Shown here in pieces: positions 20,812 to 27,145 of a stretch of 58,926 nucleotides of DNA (within the stretch, counting starts at the first letter, position 1; each line of letters starts with the position of its first letter). Source of the DNA: Terriglobia bacterium. GTDB taxonomy: Bacteria; Acidobacteriota; Terriglobia; Terriglobales; Acidobacteriaceae. The position numbers and the translations under genes are program-made. A model generated the notes under the pieces. It worked only from the letters and a program-made list of their open reading frames with translations, was not told the origin of the DNA and made no database searches. The stretch is from the NCBI GenBank assembly GCA_020073015.1, contig JAIQFZ010000010.1, positions 1 to 58,926 of the forward strand, given 5' to 3'.

Positions 20812-22506
20812 CTACGCGACGGCAAACTCGCGTGGTGTGCGTGCGAATATGTCGGGCTCCTGGTTGAAGACAAACTCGGGGTATCCGAGTTGCCCCATTT
20901 CCGGAAGATCGAGACCTGCCACCTCAGTTTCTGCCGAAACTCGATGACCCAAGAAAAACTCGAGGCCGAGGTTCAGCGCGAAACTACAAGTGAATACGAA
21001 GCCGAGCAAGGTGGAGATACCCACCAACTGTGCGGCCAGCTGGCTCGCATCACCGTAGAACAGTCCCGTGACCGAGCCCGTGACACCATTCCAGCTGCCG
21101 CCGTAGTTGCTGGTACCGTCAGCAAACAAGCCCACCGAAAGAACGCCCCACAGGCCGTTTGTGCCGTGTACGGAGATGGCCCCGACGGGATCGTCCACCT
21201 TCATTACATTTTCGACAAAGGCAACGCTCAGACACACGAGCACGCCGGCAATCAGGCCAATGATCGCGGAACTTGGCGCGCTGACGAAGCCGCTGGGCGC
21301 GGTAATTGCGACCAACCCCGCCAGCAGCCCGTTGCCGCTCATCGAGGCGTCCGGCTTGCCCTTGAAGATCCACATGTAGAGCATCGCGCCAAACGTCCCG
21401 GTGCAGCCGGCTAGCATCGTGTTCACCGCGATGGACCCGATGCGCAGGTTGCCGTTCGCGGAGGCCCCGAGCGTGCTGCCCGGATTGAATCCGAACCAGC
21501 CAAAGGCCAGGATGAAGCAGCCGATCAGCACCGCGGAAATATCGTGCCCGATGATCGCGTTGCTCGATCCGTCGCGGTTGAACTTGCCGATGCGCGGGCC
21601 GACGATGAGTGCTACAGCGAGCGCTGTCAACCCTCCCACCGCGTGCACGACACCAGACCCGGCAAAGTCACAGTATCCTTTGCCCAGGCCAAGGTTGGCT
21701 CCCAGCTGAGACAGCCAGCCCGCGCCCCACGCCCAGTTAGCAAACAGCGGATAGGTGAAGGCACCCATCAGCACCGAGGACACGCAGAAAGTTAGAAACT
21801 TCCAACGCTCGGCGCATGCGCCGGTCACGATCGTCAGTGCCGTGTCCATGAACACCATCTGGAACAGGAAGATGACCATCACGCCGACGTCGTAGGCGTG
21901 GCCCGATAGAAACATCCCGCTTTGGCCGAAAATCCCCCACGTCTTTCCGAAGAGAGAAATCGGGTGTTCGAGGGACAGCGGTTGCAAGCCACCCAGGTTG
22001 CCGTTTCCCGCGGCACCACCCATCTGAATCGCGAAGCCGATCAGCCAATAAGCGAGCAGGCCGCAACCGTACACAGCGAAATTCATCATGTAGGTGTGGT
22101 TGGCATTCTTGACCCGGCACAAGCCTGCTTCCACCATGGCGAAACCGGCTTGCATGAACATGACGAGGAAGCCGGTGATCAGCGTCCAGGTGAAGTTGAT
22201 GGCGACCTTGTTTTGTCCCACCTGATTGGCGACATCCGGAAGCGTTATGCCGGCCTTCGAGTCGGAGGCAGGAACATCACTAATAGTTCCAGTGAGCGTG
22301 CCGCCGGGATCGCCCTTCTGCAGATCGGCAGTGGCGGGCGCCTTGGCCGCAGCGTCTTTCAACTCTGCGGCGGATGCGGATGGCGGGGCCGCAGCCGGAG
22401 TGGAAGCCGGCGCCGGAGCTGATGACTGAGCGTGGGCTAACCCACCGGTCATCAAACCCAGCGCCAGGAGACAAGCGCAAAGACATCTGGTTCGCATTCG
22501 CATCAT
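20812..22506 (-). CDS. amtB: Ammonium transporter with signal peptide
   Basis: Start taken at ATG 22506, where GGAG lies nine bases upstream; the frame is open to 22707. A cleavable signal peptide (MMRMRTRCLCACLLALGLMT...AHAQ) and an Ala/Pro-rich spacer of about 60 residues precede the Amt core, which has eleven helices. Core signatures include FVMFMQAGFAMVEAGLCRVKN-type sequence, DFAGSGVVHAVGGLTALAVA (first pore histidine region), and SVHGTNGLWGVLSVGLFADG (second pore histidine). It carries ammonium across the inner membrane. No GlnK gene is adjacent. It is the last gene of an operon whose leader contains paired hairpins suited to the neighbouring ANTAR protein. Confidence 0.93.
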   Translation of the reverse strand: MMRMRTRCLCACLLALGLMTGGLAHAQSSAPAPASTPAAAPPSASAAELKDAAAKAPATADLQKGDPGGTLTGTISDVPASDSKAGITLPDVANQVGQNKVAINFTWTLITGFLVMFMQAGFAMVEAGLCRVKNANHTYMMNFAVYGCGLLAYWLIGFAIQMGGAAGNGNLGGLQPLSLEHPISLFGKTWGIFGQSGMFLSGHAYDVGVMVIFLFQMVFMDTALTIVTGACAERWKFLTFCVSSVLMGAFTYPLFANWAWGAGWLSQLGANLGLGKGYCDFAGSGVVHAVGGLTALAVALIVGPRIGKFNRDGSSNAIIGHDISAVLIGCFILAFGWFGFNPGSTLGASANGNLRIGSIAVNTMLAGCTGTFGAMLYMWIFKGKPDASMSGNGLLAGLVAITAPSGFVSAPSSAIIGLIAGVLVCLSVAFVENVMKVDDPVGAISVHGTNGLWGVLSVGLFADGTSNYGGSWNGVTGSVTGLFYGDASQLAAQLVGISTLLGFVFTCSFALNLGLEFFLGHRVSAETEVAGLDLPEMGQLGYPEFVFNQEPDIFARTPREFAVA

Positions 22507-22559
22507 TGTTGTTCGCTCCATAGTTTTTTCTTTTGCCGCCGCTCGCGAAGCCGGCGCGT

Positions 22560-22949
22560 CTAGACCTTCCAAATCGCGTTTTTGTTGAAAGCGGCCGGCA
22601 GAACGTACACAATCCCGACCAAACTCACCCCGATACCGAGCAGGCCGAGAACAATCCGGCCTCCCGTCCCGGTCACCACGTGCAATCCGAACAAGATCAG
22701 GATCCATCCGAAGCAGGCGATGAAGGCGCCCAGCAACTTCATGGTTCCGGCTCCCCGGTTTTGCGCGGGCTTCCCTTCCAGCGGCTTGAGCTTCCTAAAT
22801 CCTGCAAGACTTGCCAGCAGGACTCCTGCCCCCAGCAGCGTCAGCAACTTGCCTGATCCGCTGGAGAAATATGCAATCCCAGCACACGTCACCGTCAATC
22901 CCACAAGAAAGGTTGTGAGCGAACGGCCTTGCCCTGCACTTGCTGCCAT
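22560..22949 (-). CDS. Four-helix small membrane protein upstream of amtB
   Basis: 129 residues with a strong ribosome-binding site (GAGGAGGAAG three bases before ATG). Four hydrophobic helices are evident: LTTFLVGLTVTCAGIAYFS, LLTLLGAGVLLASLAGF, LLGAFIACFGWILILFGLHVV and IVLGLLGIGVSLVGIVYVLP. I do not recognise a named family. It precedes amtB by 53 bases on the same strand and lies about 30 bases after the hypothetical gene, so it is probably part of the ammonium operon. Confidence 0.75.
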   Translation of the reverse strand: MAASAGQGRSLTTFLVGLTVTCAGIAYFSSGSGKLLTLLGAGVLLASLAGFRKLKPLEGKPAQNRGAGTMKLLGAFIACFGWILILFGLHVVTGTGGRIVLGLLGIGVSLVGIVYVLPAAFNKNAIWKV

Positions 22950-22981
22950 GAACTTCCTCCTCGACCCGGAAGGGTCACTTC

Positions 22982-23452
22982 CTACGTTGCAAATCCAAAA
23001 CTGCGATCCTTGGGCGGGAGTGCTTTCAGAACCCCGTCCTCAAGAGAGAAGTGGAATCCACACAACTTTGCCCGCATTGCGACCGAACTTACTCTCGGCG
23101 GGGGTTGGTCTTCTCTTGCTACCGTTCCTGTGATGATGAGTTCCGCCGCCTCGGCTGCCGACTGACGGTAGACGCGAAACTTGGCGCTGCGAATCTCGGA
23201 AAGCATTTCGAACATGATGTCGCGTATCTTCATCGCGTCTCGCAGGGCCTGCAATGTCTGGTTTCGCTCGGCTACACCGGGGGGCAAGTCCGCGTCCCAT
23301 GGATCCGGCGGCCGGGCGATCCATTCGCATTCCGCCACATCGCCGCGCAATTCCAGCCGCAGCAGACGCAGGGGCGCACGCGACAACTCTCCATACAGCA
23401 GTCGCCGACGCACTCGCCGAATGAAGTCGGCTGCTTCCCAGAGCGGAGTCAT
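22982..23452 (-). CDS. Conserved-looking hypothetical protein (156 aa)
   Basis: Start at ATG 23452, which overlaps the stop of the preceding gene as ATGA, implying translational coupling. The sequence begins MTPLWEAADFIRRVRRRLLYGELSRAPLRLLRLE and continues with a helical middle (TLQALRDAMKIRDIMFEMLSEI) and a basic C-terminus ending in DRSFGFAT. No membrane helix or known motif is visible. Although the function is unknown, the operon context (membrane protein upstream, membrane protein and amtB downstream) points to a role with the ammonium transporter. Confidence 0.6.
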   Translation of the reverse strand: MTPLWEAADFIRRVRRRLLYGELSRAPLRLLRLELRGDVAECEWIARPPDPWDADLPPGVAERNQTLQALRDAMKIRDIMFEMLSEIRSAKFRVYRQSAAEAAELIITGTVAREDQPPPRVSSVAMRAKLCGFHFSLEDGVLKALPPKDRSFGFAT

Positions 23453-23757
23453 CGCCGCCGCACTCCACTGCGGGTGTCCGTTCCAACCGGCAGGGCGAGA
23501 AATACCAGGAACTGCAGCCCGACCATTACCTCGAGGACGAGCGGCAGCGGCTGTTGCAGCCGAATCACCAACATCAGCGCCACCATCGAGAACCACTGCC
23601 ATCGCGTCCGCCGCAACCGTTCCAGCCGATCAGAAAGCCGGAAGAACTCGCCGAACGTCATCCTGTGGTCAGCGGCGAACGGCGCATGTGCGCGGATACA
23701 GGCGACCGCAAAGAAGCCTGCCATCAATAACTCGAATAAGATCGTCCTACCGTCCAT
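23449..23757 (-). CDS. Small membrane protein opening the ammonium operon
   Basis: 102 residues from ATG 23757, with GGAG seven bases upstream. One N-terminal hydrophobic segment (ILFELLMAGFFAVACIRAHA), a basic middle (RLSDRLERLRRTRWQW), then two more hydrophobic stretches (FSMVALMLVIRLQQPLPLVL and VMVGLQFLVFLALPV). The stop overlaps the next start by four bases. The family is not recognised. It is the first gene downstream of the paired hairpins at 23883-23931, so it would be the first gene controlled by them. Confidence 0.6.
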   Translation of the reverse strand: MDGRTILFELLMAGFFAVACIRAHAPFAADHRMTFGEFFRLSDRLERLRRTRWQWFSMVALMLVIRLQQPLPLVLEVMVGLQFLVFLALPVGTDTRSGVRRR

Positions 23758-24077
23758 CGCTTGGCTCCGCTCCGCGAGCGCATCAGGGGCGCTCGAACAA
23801 TCGAATGGCGTAACAGCCGCGGGCAATCCAGCTCGACGGCTCGCGCACAAGCCATTACGCACTCACAATATTTCGTTGAATCGGCACAGCATCGTGCCAA
23901 AGAATCGCCTCTTCTCAGCATCGAAAAGAGGGAGCAACTTCCGTTACCTACAGTCCCACTTACCCGGGAATTTTGCTTGCTGTTACCTGCAAAGTCAAAT
24001 TCAAACTTTTTATTGGCGTCATCATCCGGGACCGATCACTCCGGCAACCACATGAGACGCGTTTCGCGCACCCTCGA
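23758..24077 (-). other. Leader region of the ammonium operon
   Basis: This 320-base stretch holds the paired hairpins, an additional perfect 7-bp hairpin (CGAGCGC with GCGCTCG, loop CCCTGAT) just before the ribosome-binding site of the first gene, and inverted AATGGC/GCCATT elements. No gene and no obvious T-run terminator is present, so control of downstream transcription or translation could work through these structures. Confidence 0.55.
23883..23931 (-). ncRNA. Dual hexaloop hairpins, candidate ANTAR RNA target
   Basis: Read on the minus strand, the first hairpin (23931-23908) has a nine-pair stem CCUCUUUUC/GAGAAGAGG with one U-G pair. After a nine-base linker, the second (23898-23883) has a five-pair stem GGCAC/GUGCC. 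Both close a six-base loop with the same sequence, GAUGCU. ANTAR proteins are known to bind two consecutive hairpins with six-base loops, usually with A at loop position 1 and G at position 4; here position 4 is G but position 1 is G. The pair sits 147 bases after the ANTAR gene stop and about 126 bases before the first gene of the ammonium operon. Confidence 0.6.
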
Positions 24078-24833
24078 TTAGCCCTGTTTTACCGCGTAGC
24101 TCAGAACGACTGCCTGCGCGATGTCCTTCATGGACATTCGCCGATGTTGGCTCTGGCGCTGGAGCATGAGGTAGGCTTCCTGCTCGCTGATCTTCAGATC
24201 GTGCTGCAAGATGCCCTTGGCGCGCTCCACCAGCTTTCGCACTTCCAGCCGATCCGCCAGTTGCGACTTCTCTTTCTCCAGACGGGCCATTTCGATCTCG
24301 GCACCCACCAGGAAACCGACCGTCGAAATCAAGGTGATTTCGCGTTCGCTGTAACTGTGCCGGGCGACATTCTGCAGATTGATCACTCCCACGACGCGTC
24401 CCCGGCTGAGCAGAGGAACCGACAAGAACGCTTCAAAGCGATCCTCGGGCAACTCGTTGAAGAACTGAAACCGGGGGTCGCGGGAAGCATTCTGGGATAC
24501 CGCGACCGGCTGGCGATGTTCGGCAACCCAGCCGGTGATACCTTGCCCCAGCTTCAGTTTGAGCCGGTCCACGGCTTCCGGGTGCGGATTCTTGGAAGCC
24601 CGCAGGACCAACTCGTCCCCTTCCAGAATGTAGACAAAGCACGAGTCACACTTCACCACGGAGGTGACAAATTCGACGACCTGTGCCAGAACATCGTGAA
24701 AAGGGACTGAGGCAGCCATTCGGCTGGCGATGCCATGAAGAACGGCGTGTTGCCGCGCGAATGGATCGGGCTGCTCAACGCAAACCGGCAGCAGCGGCCG
24801 ACTGCTCGGGTGCCATCCCCCAGAAGTACTCAT
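24078..24833 (-). CDS. GAF-ANTAR transcription antiterminator
   Basis: 251 residues: a GAF sensor domain (about 30-180, with LGQGITGWVAEHRQPVAVS and SVPLLSRGRVVGVINLQN), a coiled-coil linker (ARLEKEKSQLADRLEVRKLV) and an ANTAR RNA-binding domain (about 190-245, KLVERAKGILQHDLKISEQE followed by an AYLMLQRQS helix). ANTAR proteins such as NasR, AmiR and EutV bind paired hairpins in leader RNAs and prevent termination, often in nitrogen metabolism. Immediately downstream on the same strand is the leader with paired hairpins and the amtB operon, so this is very likely its target. No Shine-Dalgarno precedes ATG 24833; the start may be internal. Confidence 0.9.
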   Translation of the reverse strand: MSTSGGWHPSSRPLLPVCVEQPDPFARQHAVLHGIASRMAASVPFHDVLAQVVEFVTSVVKCDSCFVYILEGDELVLRASKNPHPEAVDRLKLKLGQGITGWVAEHRQPVAVSQNASRDPRFQFFNELPEDRFEAFLSVPLLSRGRVVGVINLQNVARHSYSEREITLISTVGFLVGAEIEMARLEKEKSQLADRLEVRKLVERAKGILQHDLKISEQEAYLMLQRQSQHRRMSMKDIAQAVVLSYAVKQG

Positions 24834-24922: not shown

Positions 24923-25546
24923 CTATCTGCGGGGGCGCGGTTTGAGTTTGTCCGACATCCTGACCAAGTCGGCCAGGGATGCAGCTTCCATTTTCTGCAT
25001 CACACGACTGCGATGAATCTTCACTGTGACTTCACTTAAACCGAGTTGGGCGCCGATCTGCTTGTTGATGAGGCCGGTTACGACGAGGTCCATCACCTCG
25101 CGTTCTCGCGACGTGAGCTGCTCCACTCGCGATTGCAGAATCGAAACCTCAGCTTGCTCTTCGCGGCGGATGCGGTCCCGATCAAGACCGTGATGCACCG
25201 CTGCCAGAAGGTCTTCCTTCTGGAAAGGTTTCATCAGGAACTCGATGGCTCCTGCTTTCATGGCCCGCGAGGTCATGGGGACATCGCCGTGCGCGGTAAT
25301 AAAGATGATGGGAATGGACAGGTTTGCTTTCGCGAGCTGCTCCTGGAACTCAAGGCCGCTCACTCCCGGAAGCCTCACGTCGAGCACCAGGCAGCTGGGC
25401 CCGTTGGGGCGCGGCGCCTTCCAGAACTCTTCGGTAGAAGCAAACAGCTTGGCACGCAGACCAACCGCTTCGAGCAGGTTGCTGATGGCATCGCGAACGG
25501 AGGCGTCGTCATCAACAACGAAGATGGTGGGCCGGGCGTCAGCCAT
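24923..25546 (-). CDS. FixJ/NarL-type response regulator
   Basis: 207 residues starting at ATG 25546, which overlaps the kinase stop by eight bases (ATGGCTGA), so translation is coupled. Receiver domain (about 1-120) with the DDD acidic cluster, phosphoacceptor Asp in CLVLDVRLPGVSGLEF, ITAHGD and the Lys in FLMKPFQKEDLL. A LuxR-type helix-turn-helix follows (about 140-200: LTSREREVMDLVVTGLINKQ, then GLSEVTVKIHRSRVMQKM). It matches the FixJ/TtrR subfamily and is partner of the kinase upstream. Targets are unknown; nitrogen-oxide genes and amtB are nearby. Confidence 0.92.
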   Translation of the reverse strand: MADARPTIFVVDDDASVRDAISNLLEAVGLRAKLFASTEEFWKAPRPNGPSCLVLDVRLPGVSGLEFQEQLAKANLSIPIIFITAHGDVPMTSRAMKAGAIEFLMKPFQKEDLLAAVHHGLDRDRIRREEQAEVSILQSRVEQLTSREREVMDLVVTGLINKQIGAQLGLSEVTVKIHRSRVMQKMEAASLADLVRMSDKLKPRPRR

Positions 25547-26678
25547 CGGAATCCCGCGGACGAACTGGAAGTGTAAATTCAAAGATAGCGCCGCCGGAAG
25601 AGCGCGGTGTCGCCCAGAGCCGGCCCTCATGTGCCTCAACAATCGAGCGACTGATCGACAACCCCATGCCGATGCCATGGGGCTTCGTCGTGAAAAATGG
25701 TTGGAAGACCTTCTCCGCAGTCTCCGCGTTCAGGCCGACTCCGGTGTCTTCGACGCGCACCATCACGTCGGCCTCGTTCGCGCGCGCGCTGATGAGCAGT
25801 TCTTTCGGGAAGTTGGTCGTCTCCGCCATCGCATCCATGCCATTCATCATGAGGTTAAGCAGGACCTGCTGCAACTGAACCCGGTCCGCTTTGACTTTGG
25901 GCAGCCCGGGGACAAGGTCGGTTCGGATCGCGATGCCGCGCCGCACGGCTTCATCGCGCAGAAATGTGGTCAATTCGTGAATTACTTCGTTGACATCAAG
26001 CCAGGTCTTCGCCGGTGCCTCCTTCTTGACGAGCGCGCGAATGCGGCTAAGGACGGCACCTGCCCGCGTGCCGTCCTGGATGATCCGCTCAACCGTCTGG
26101 CGCGTCTTCTCAAGGTTCGGAGGACTTGCCGAAAGCCACTCGATACAGGCATGTCCGTGTGTCACCACAGCCGTAAGCGGCTGGTTGATTTCATGGGCAA
26201 TTGAAGACGTGAGCTCACCCATGCTCAGAACCTGCGAAAGATGAGCGAGTTCTGTTTGCGTCTTCATCAGCTCGGCCGTTCGTTCGGACACCCGGACCTC
26301 CAGCTGGTCGAGCGCTTCCTTGAGCGCTACCTCGCTCTTTTTCTTCGCAGAACTTACCCAACTAGCCGCCAAGGCGCACGCCACGAATGCAGCAAAGTAA
26401 GCCTCCGCGGTCGTACTGATGGAAAACGAATAGAACGGAGGCACAAAGAAATACTCAACAAGAACTGTTGAAAGTAGTACCGCGAAAAGCCCCGCGGCCG
26501 TCCCTCCGAACCAGGCGCTCGCCATTACCGCGCCGAAGAATAGGAACAAGAAGGGATACGGGAAGAGACGCTGGAGCAACAAAGTCGGAACAAAAGCCGC
26601 CATCACAAAAAGCAAAGTGAACCCGCAGTGCCGGATCAGTGAGCGAATTGGCCCTTCAGGGAGTACGTCGGTTTGCAT
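25539..26678 (-). CDS. Membrane sensor histidine kinase with DUF4118 input domain
   Basis: 379 residues from ATG 26678 (AAGGA just upstream; the frame is open farther out to 26903). Three or four membrane helices near the N-terminus (GFTLLFVMAAFVPTLLLQ, then FLFLFFGAVMASAWFGG, AAGLFAVLLSTVLVEYFF) form a KdpD-like DUF4118 unit. After a coiled coil (LDQLEVRVSERTAELMKTQT), the HisKA box is MGELTSSIAHEINQPLTAVV and the ATPase domain shows DRVQLQQVLLNLMMNGMDAM, DTGVGL and GIGMGLSISRSIVEAH. This is the FixL-like subfamily. It phosphorylates the coupled FixJ-type regulator. The signal is unknown. Confidence 0.92.
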   Translation of the reverse strand: MQTDVLPEGPIRSLIRHCGFTLLFVMAAFVPTLLLQRLFPYPFLFLFFGAVMASAWFGGTAAGLFAVLLSTVLVEYFFVPPFYSFSISTTAEAYFAAFVACALAASWVSSAKKKSEVALKEALDQLEVRVSERTAELMKTQTELAHLSQVLSMGELTSSIAHEINQPLTAVVTHGHACIEWLSASPPNLEKTRQTVERIIQDGTRAGAVLSRIRALVKKEAPAKTWLDVNEVIHELTTFLRDEAVRRGIAIRTDLVPGLPKVKADRVQLQQVLLNLMMNGMDAMAETTNFPKELLISARANEADVMVRVEDTGVGLNAETAEKVFQPFFTTKPHGIGMGLSISRSIVEAHEGRLWATPRSSGGAIFEFTLPVRPRDSDG

Positions 26679-26689
26679 AGATTCCTTGC

Positions 26690-27145
26690 TCACGCCACAG
26701 TGCAAATAGCCAGACGGTAGCGTGAGCTGAAACTGCAGCTCCCGCGCGTCCCGTCGAAATGAAAAGTTTGGCCAAGAATACCTCCTGCCTCCTGACTGTT
26801 CAAACCGGCAAAGCCGTCTACCAGTCCAGGCAGAATATAAGTGCCCGTATAATCGAGCGTCTTTGCGTATTTGGGGATCTTGACGAGGGCGGCGGGCTGC
26901 CACGCCTTCAATGCGGCTGCGCCTCGGCGTTCAAGAATCATCTGTTTATCGAAGCCTTTGATGGCCCGATCCGCAATCGCAGGATCAACAACGTGCGGAC
27001 CGCACCGCAGACGGGTTTGTTGAACGCAGCCGGGCAGGATCATGTGCAGCGCGTACCGACTGTCAGTTGGGATGAGATTTCCACAGAGTGTACGGAAGGC
27101 GTACACGCCATAAAATCGCGATCGTGCATCATTCCGCATCGGCAC
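26690..27145 (-). pseudogene. Decayed amidohydrolase-like fragment
   Basis: Within this frame the phrase KTLDYTGTYILPGLVDGFAG followed by LNSQ matches the N-terminal part of amidohydrolases (the G-x-x-LPGLIDxH/F segment after the first beta-sandwich). Everything before it is unlike a normal N-terminus, and after it the frame loses resemblance and stops at 26690, without the metal-binding HxH or the barrel. It is therefore a remnant, abutting the histidine kinase gene upstream. Its 5' portion also carries the short sequence shared with the start of the window. Confidence 0.45.

Follow-up and report, generated by a model that had tools for sequence, protein, structure and literature searches.

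The target RNAs of the EutV/eut, NasR/nas and AmiR/ami systems are composed of tandem small hairpins with six-base loops in which the fourth base is G (G4), mostly closed by a C-G pair, with an ANTAR gene nearby and nitrogen-related genes as targets. According to PMC8934654, G4 is flipped onto Tyr164 of EutV, which is the only base-specific contact, the A at loop position 1 (A1) is not contacted by the protein, and the M172A substitution of the Met172 plug abolishes binding. In eut, A1 is needed for full EutV induction and the eutP linker tolerates neither 3 nor 14 nt. In PMC8164766, many of the ANTAR RNAs of actinobacteria are described as lacking terminators, and repression of translation is reported for mycobacteria. 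Ammonium transporters and P-II genes are included among the predicted ANTAR targets in PMC3369931, so that the theme of ANTAR control at ammonium transporters is already known. The string "acidobact" was absent from the main texts of PMC3369931 and PMC8164766, and "acidobacteria" from that of PMC8934654, a text-word negative for the main texts, as Table S2 of PMC3369931 may hold Acidobacterial entries; no paper on ANTAR RNAs in Acidobacteria was found in the open-licence literature.

Here, a stretch of 58,926 nucleotides from a Terriglobia bacterium of soil (the window) was analysed, in which a leader with hexaloop hairpins is placed between a GAF-ANTAR gene and an operon carrying amtB. Its hairpins, G4, promoter and gene association are established by sequence comparison within a set of 28 Acidobacteriota leaders, and the identity of the leader as an ANTAR target is supported by comparative genomics. 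The leader probably works in cis as an RNA switch that binds the product of the ANTAR gene directly upstream and controls the amtB operon. The leaders share with the EutV, NasR and AmiR targets the tandem small hairpins, the six-base loops with G4, the mostly C-G closing pair, the nearby ANTAR gene and the nitrogen-related targets, and differ from them in that A1 is nearly absent, three hairpins are often present with variable spacing, no terminator was found over the second hairpin, and the adjacent protein is a GAF-ANTAR or DUF4118-ANTAR with Q or R, not Met, at the plug position. The relaxed loop sequence and the frequent absence of terminators are also found in the actinobacterial and mycobacterial ANTAR RNAs of PMC8164766. 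In that paper, however, A1 occurs in over half of the actinobacterial RNAs, whereas it is rare here, and about 37% of them overlap the ribosome site or start codon, whereas the Acidobacteriota hairpins are placed further upstream, mostly behind a conserved promoter.

The window locus

The features of the locus are collected in Table 1. The first-pass annotation had described two hairpins of nine and five pairs, nine bases apart and with identical GAUGCU loops, and these were confirmed on the minus strand (23931-23883). The leader thereby presents two tandem six-base-loop hairpins of at least three pairs each, the dual-hexaloop arrangement of ANTAR targets, and two weak outer pairs can be added to the five of P2. 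To that description, a sigma70-like promoter belonging to the leader itself was added. Pfam verified that the gene just upstream encodes a GAF-ANTAR protein (GAF, 7.7e-18; ANTAR, 1.1e-17), with PF03861 (ANTAR) scoring 64 bits against a curated cut-off of 27.3. On the other hand, amtB had been taken for the last gene of the operon and turned out to be the fourth gene downstream, followed on the same strand by two ORFs, one of 217 aa that matches nothing in Pfam and one judged by eye to be antiporter-like. The three small genes preceding amtB (22560-23757) have no Pfam match, yet they recur with the operon in relatives.

Table 1. Positions of leader elements and genes of the locus within the window
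Feature	Position	Strand	Remarks
DUF4118 histidine kinase	25539..26903	-	sensor resembles that of a DUF4118-ANTAR fusion
REC-LuxR response regulator	24923..25678	-	upstream of ANTAR gene
GAF-ANTAR gene, proposed leader binder	24078..24833	-	directly upstream of leader
-35 box of leader promoter	23993..23998	-	TTGACT; A/T-rich stretch AATAAAAAGTTTGAAT 5' of box
-10 box of leader promoter	23970..23975	-	CAAAAT; 17 nt from -35 box
P1 hexaloop hairpin	23908..23931	-	CCUCUUUUC[GAUGCU]GAGAAGAGG; 9 pairs, one U-G among them; loop G4
P1-P2 linker	23899..23907	-	9 nt
P2 hexaloop hairpin	23883..23898	-	GGCAC[GAUGCU]GUGCC; 5 pairs; most conserved part of the element
Hairpin in the place of relatives' P3	23838..23853	-	GGCUU[GUGCGC]GAGCC; loop position 4 is C
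orf137, first operon gene	23449..23757	-	ATG at 23757, start by eye; no Pfam match; kept in several orthologous loci
orf206	22982..23512	-	no Pfam match; between leader and amtB in many loci; start by eye
orf129	22560..22949	-	no Pfam match; small membrane protein by eye
amtB, ammonium transporter	20812..22521	-	PF00909, 2.9e-104; start codon by eye

The minimum free energy of the 76-nt leader segment was -24.4 kcal/mol (z = -2.4), and 3 of 200 shuffled sequences were equally stable. The energy model pairs G1 with U6 in the window loops and draws a tetraloop; the hexaloop is favoured because the loops of other members (CGAGCC, TGAGTT, CCCGTC) cannot form this pair. In 113 partly overlapping records, which total 892,390 bases, both strands were searched for twin hairpins no more than 30 nt apart, each having at least five pairs and a six-base loop with G4. 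The 244 twins obtained indicate that the arrangement by itself is common; identical loops among these were found at the window site only, in three overlapping records. The hairpin pair by itself is thus a weak case, and it is conservation that carries the argument. The Rfam models detected no relevant family in the window at gathering and permissive thresholds, nor in the loci of seven relatives, where one microRNA match fell far below its threshold.

Occurrence and gene context of the leaders

The comparison set comprised ten seeds found beside ANTAR genes and 18 leaders found by means of an RNA model. For the seeds, a protein scan with the window GAF-ANTAR provided the best 80 loci, eight of which presented a leader and a partly kept neighbourhood (L033, L034, L037, L044, L088, L097, L100 and L110); two leader copies were found in L034, one before amtB-glnK and the other before orf137-orf206-orf129-amtB. 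The MAFFT alignment of the orthologous leaders revealed a conserved promoter, a mostly kept P1 and a nearly invariant P2. A ninth locus, L060, carried an RNA-model match beside a DUF4118-ANTAR gene, and the other 71 of the best 80 GAF-ANTAR loci had no RNA-model match better than E 0.0088.

The first covariance model, composed of P2 and the downstream hairpin P3 from 10 sequences, was searched in 399 genomes of the class, and an enlarged model of 26 sequences was searched in 89 genomes of the family of G085, 396 of the phylum and 150 of the window's own family. The class search gave 31 rows, comprising six seed loci, 16 kept and nine dropped after inspection (E 1.5e-4 to 0.009). Among the 26 rows from the family of G085, 20 were known and six weak ones were dropped, G309 and G105 without inspection. 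The own-family search gave 23 rows, with four known, two kept, L178 borderline and 16 dropped (L179 and L180 inspected, the remainder by score), and the phylum search gave 14, of which the window alone was kept, L180 and L182-L186 were inspected and the other seven were dropped by score. Two candidates from the phylum search were rejected: G690 (E 1.5e-5), which has no P2-type hairpin, and G574, whose P2-type hairpin sits inside an ORF. The 18 model-found leaders remaining after inspection came from the class (16) and own-family (2) searches, and one of them, L158b, is also the leader of L060, a locus retrieved through ANTAR. The borderline match (L178:290-375, E 2.6e-5) presented G4 loops and was placed before an operon of 4Fe-4S/DmsC-like and molybdopterin oxidoreductase genes.

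In agreement with the first-pass proposal of a new ANTAR target, the element recurred in relatives before amtB and permease operons, mostly beside ANTAR genes. An ANTAR gene was found directly upstream in 13 of the 18 model-found leaders, that before L155 appearing interrupted, while the remaining five (L158a and L160-L163) had none adjacent, with ANTAR genes elsewhere in their genomes. Downstream, amtB was found in 10/18, as assigned with the L146 AmtB query and Pfam, with the P-II gene glnK next in six of those ten; a gene of about 280 aa without known function followed by an amino-acid permease (PF13520) was found in 5/18; L152 carried the same gene alone, the contig ending there; and neither arrangement was present in two (L159, L161). 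Four genomes (G085, G274, G329 and G389) held three leaders each, as would be expected of a small regulon. Promoters of the T(T/G)GAC-17/18 type preceded 23 of the 28 leaders, against a background of 0.01 per 190 nt, and the five leaders without it were the same five without an adjacent ANTAR gene (L158a, L160-L163), whose promoters possibly represent a different class. By eye, TTTGC takes the place of the TTGAC-type -35 box in L158a, L160, L161, L162 and L163.

ANTAR genes were present in 222 of the 399 class genomes, and most genomes carrying them lacked the element. All 13 class genomes with matches of model R1 at E<=1e-5 carried an ANTAR gene, a proportion that includes six genomes holding ANTAR-found seeds. 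When model R2 was searched in 15 genomes (13 others of the window's genus, G029 of its family and its own), the window alone was found and 14 genomes lacked the element, which is therefore patchy and rare even among near genomes. Two further amtB-like loci of the window's genome had no RNA-model match in this search. A control of 16 amtB loci besides that of the window was weak, its 1.5 kb flanks being too short to reach the window's own leader. One of the 16, L203 of the window's genome, presented two G4 hexaloop hairpins 17 nt apart and far upstream, which are not a model match.

Leader anatomy and the adjacent ANTAR proteins

Hexaloop hairpins were picked by energy in the 28 leaders, ignoring loop content, and position 4 was G in 28/28 P2, 24/28 P1 and 22/28 P3 picks; P2 and P3 belong to the search model, so that their G4 is partly selected, whereas P1 lies outside it. 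Energies above 0 mark the P1 picks of L034b, L153, L161 and L163 as weak, the pick of L148 may not be a true P1, and those without G4 were from L034a, L152, L154 and L176. Position 1 was A in only 2/28 P2, 1/28 P1 and 4/28 P3 picks, and G in both window loops. Only the G4 half of the published A1/G4 rule is therefore kept, A1 being nearly absent, and the first-pass remark that position 1 departs from A while G4 stays extends to the set of 28 leaders.

The two-hairpin layout holds for the window, but many relatives carry three hexaloop hairpins. A third hairpin, P3, with a GCUC/GAGC-type stem was present in 20/28 leaders, with G4 in all 20 and a distance of 15-19 nt from P2 in all but one. In the group formed by the window, L033, L044 and L181, P1 and P2 are 7-9 nt apart and no G4 P3 of this type is present; the window hairpin found in its place is probably a degenerate or lost third site. 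L034 and L176 combine a close but degenerate P1 with a P3. Elsewhere P1 is mostly 25-50 nt from P2, and the gap ranges overall from 7 to 50 nt. Set against the linkers of 5-12 nt in eut and the 2-25 nt used for actinobacteria, the P1-P2 gap of the window group fits; in the other leaders this gap is mostly longer, with P3, where it has the standard form, nearly always 15-19 nt from P2. Two G4 hexaloops at short distance were found in 24/28 leaders, not always the same two (in L163, at 10 nt), the exceptions being L150, L151, L157 and L159, where P1 is far away and P3 not clear. An extra 5' hairpin before P1, by eye a hexaloop with G4, was seen in both L151 and L159.

In the P2+P3 alignment of 26 sequences, which is fitted to the model, 94.6% of the cells pair, 12 cells are changed on both sides and none of 500 shuffles reached as high. 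Pairs 4 to 8 of P1 presented U-A, C-G and A-U alternatives in a set of 20 hairpins selected for their pairing. The stems of P1, P2 and P3 share no sequence, having in common only loop length and G4. The conservation of stems and loops on which the first-pass annotation had staked its proposal was therefore observed, as compensatory stem changes with G4 kept.

The window ANTAR was compared with EutV (6wsh; residue numbering is that of the chain offset by two). Of the RNA-contact residues, R142, K143, K149, E160, Y164 and R175 are kept, including the G4 contacts R142, K149, E160 and Y164, and the changes are K147R, R168Q, M172Q, N173H and R177S. At the Met172 position, the leader-adjacent ANTARs carry Q in 20/22 and R in 2/22 (L150 and L157, in which the P2 loop is CGAGCC). 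R was present in 64/64 compared relatives, namely 63 different domains encoded at those of the best 80 loci that lack a leader, plus the window's own paralogue on C45; outside these, two more distant ANTARs have Met (L020, L021) and others R. The association of Q172 with the leader is backed by few independent events, since the label needs three changes on the ANTAR tree, built from 71 columns and with many unresolved forks. Both Q and R at this position also occur in actinobacterial ANTARs.

The upstream ANTAR is joined with DUF4118 in L145, L146, L148, L152-L156 and L158b, as checked by Pfam in L146 and by similarity and translation in the other loci. The sensor of the window histidine kinase (25539-26903) shares 71% identity over 115 aa with that of the L146 DUF4118-ANTAR (L146:5187-5885), an exchange of sensor between kinase and RNA-binding output. 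This membrane sensor with a coiled coil is carried by the histidine kinase in the window and directly by the ANTAR in relatives. As to other ANTAR architectures and loci, the second GAF-ANTAR of the window's genome (L174, contig C45) is 66% identical, with R at the plug position; in L174, L052 and L077 the GAF-ANTAR lies near a gene resembling inositol-phosphate synthase by eye, and model search revealed no leader of P2/P3 type at these three loci. In L107 and L112, ORFs of 555 and 569 aa join a uroporphyrinogen-III synthase-like N-terminal part (by eye) to GAF-ANTAR.

Output step and alternative readings

In the proposed mechanism, a sigma70-type promoter would produce a leader carrying two or more G4 hexaloop hairpins, and the nitrogen state would be signalled by the sensor half of the ANTAR protein (GAF, or DUF4118 in some relatives) or by the neighbouring kinase/regulator pair. 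An ANTAR dimer would then capture the flipped G4 of successive hairpins, changing how strongly the ammonium-transporter operon is expressed; most likely, transcription would thereby be allowed to continue across the ~125 nt that separate P2 from the first start codon. We infer the protein binding and dimer mode from the EutV/NasR family; the signal, the direction of control and the output step (termination, either Rho-dependent or of an unrecognised kind, or else translation/mRNA stability), which we also infer, are the weakest parts. Against the ANTAR-switch reading stand the near absence of the A1 needed for full EutV induction, the replacement by Q or R of a Met172 essential in EutV, the five model-found leaders without an adjacent ANTAR gene in a patchy element, the P1-P2 gaps of 7 to 50 nt in view of the narrow eutP tolerance, and the output step itself, for which no general terminator or alternative pairing was found.

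Regarding the latter, the terminator scan of the window leader gave no candidate, as anticipated by the first-pass statement that no T-run terminator is obvious after the second hairpin. Across the 28 leaders, seven candidates were found in six (0.25 per leader, versus 0.11 per mononucleotide-shuffled leader), and none overlapped P2. Three of them correspond to P1 or 5' hairpins (L034b, L144, L147), and four are downstream of P2 with short T tails, in L144 and in the homologous L158a, L160 and L162 (tail GTTTC), where a terminator after P3 is possible. Pairing of the hairpin arms with downstream sequence was not general in the 28 leaders (mean z -0.27 to 0.60). Consequently, the classical model of a terminator over P2 is unsupported. 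Leads for downstream pairing were the 3' arm of P3 in L145, L146 and L151, and the 5' arm region in the window (z -3.0) and L156 (z -2.4); in L145 and L146 the P3 arm pairs unusually well (z -2.6 and -3.1), by eye shortly before the start codon.

The main rival, which appears possible but rather unlikely, is that the ANTAR protein binds the leader and acts on translation or mRNA stability, as in mycobacteria. It would account for the 22/28 leaders without terminator candidate, the window among them, would have precedents in the terminator-less actinobacterial RNAs and mycobacterial repression of PMC8164766, and could use the P3 pairing of L145 and L146. However, the leaders as a whole do not show this pairing (mean z -0.27 across the 28), and the first ORFs of the inspected leaders start 55 to 177 nt past the model match, which leaves the ribosome site uncovered and makes its direct cover by the hairpins unlikely.

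Two further explanations are improbable, and to a similar extent. In one, the inverted repeats would be DNA operators, for example for the REC-LuxR regulator, working as roadblock or repressor sites and not as RNA. P2 is indeed a near-perfect dyad (GGACAC-N6-GTGTCC in many relatives) just past a conserved promoter, and a gene for a LuxR-type regulator is close by, both in the window and in eight leader-bearing loci among the 80; but no stem sequence is common to the three hairpins, the loop base that is conserved breaks the symmetry, the P2 and P3 stems contain G-U pairs, and the leader is kept at loci with DUF4118-ANTAR in place of GAF-ANTAR. In the other, the hairpins would be the site of another factor or a passive stabilising 5' structure with the ANTAR gene merely as neighbour, in line with the five model-found leaders lacking that gene and the extra 5' hairpin of some leaders; the adjacency in 13/18, with two sensor architectures, is nevertheless far above chance for genomes with one to three ANTAR genes, and hexaloop length and G4 agree with the known ANTAR code. 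Finally, chance inverted repeats, suggested by the frequency of twin G4 hexaloop hairpins, are contradicted by conservation and compensatory change across the 28 leaders and retain practically no probability.

Within the reading of the leader as an ANTAR-bound RNA switch, a tentative proposal, somewhat short of an even chance, is that Acidobacteriota use a separate ANTAR code, in which a G4-only hexaloop would be read by Gln-plug ANTARs and a two-out-of-three array would have been rewired by lineages (P1-P2 close, or P2-P3 with P1 far). This code would be partly driven by DUF4118-ANTAR fusions anchored in the membrane, which would signal from there to the growing transcripts of ammonium transporters and permeases and would need neither a kinase nor an intrinsic terminator.

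If the ANTAR-switch reading is true, ANTAR RNA control would be extended to Acidobacteriota, abundant soil bacteria, and to their ammonium uptake. Moreover, the natural pairs of loops and ANTAR domains offer a way to test what loop position 1 and the plug residue contribute, in a system whose ANTAR RNAs apparently function with no terminator in sight.
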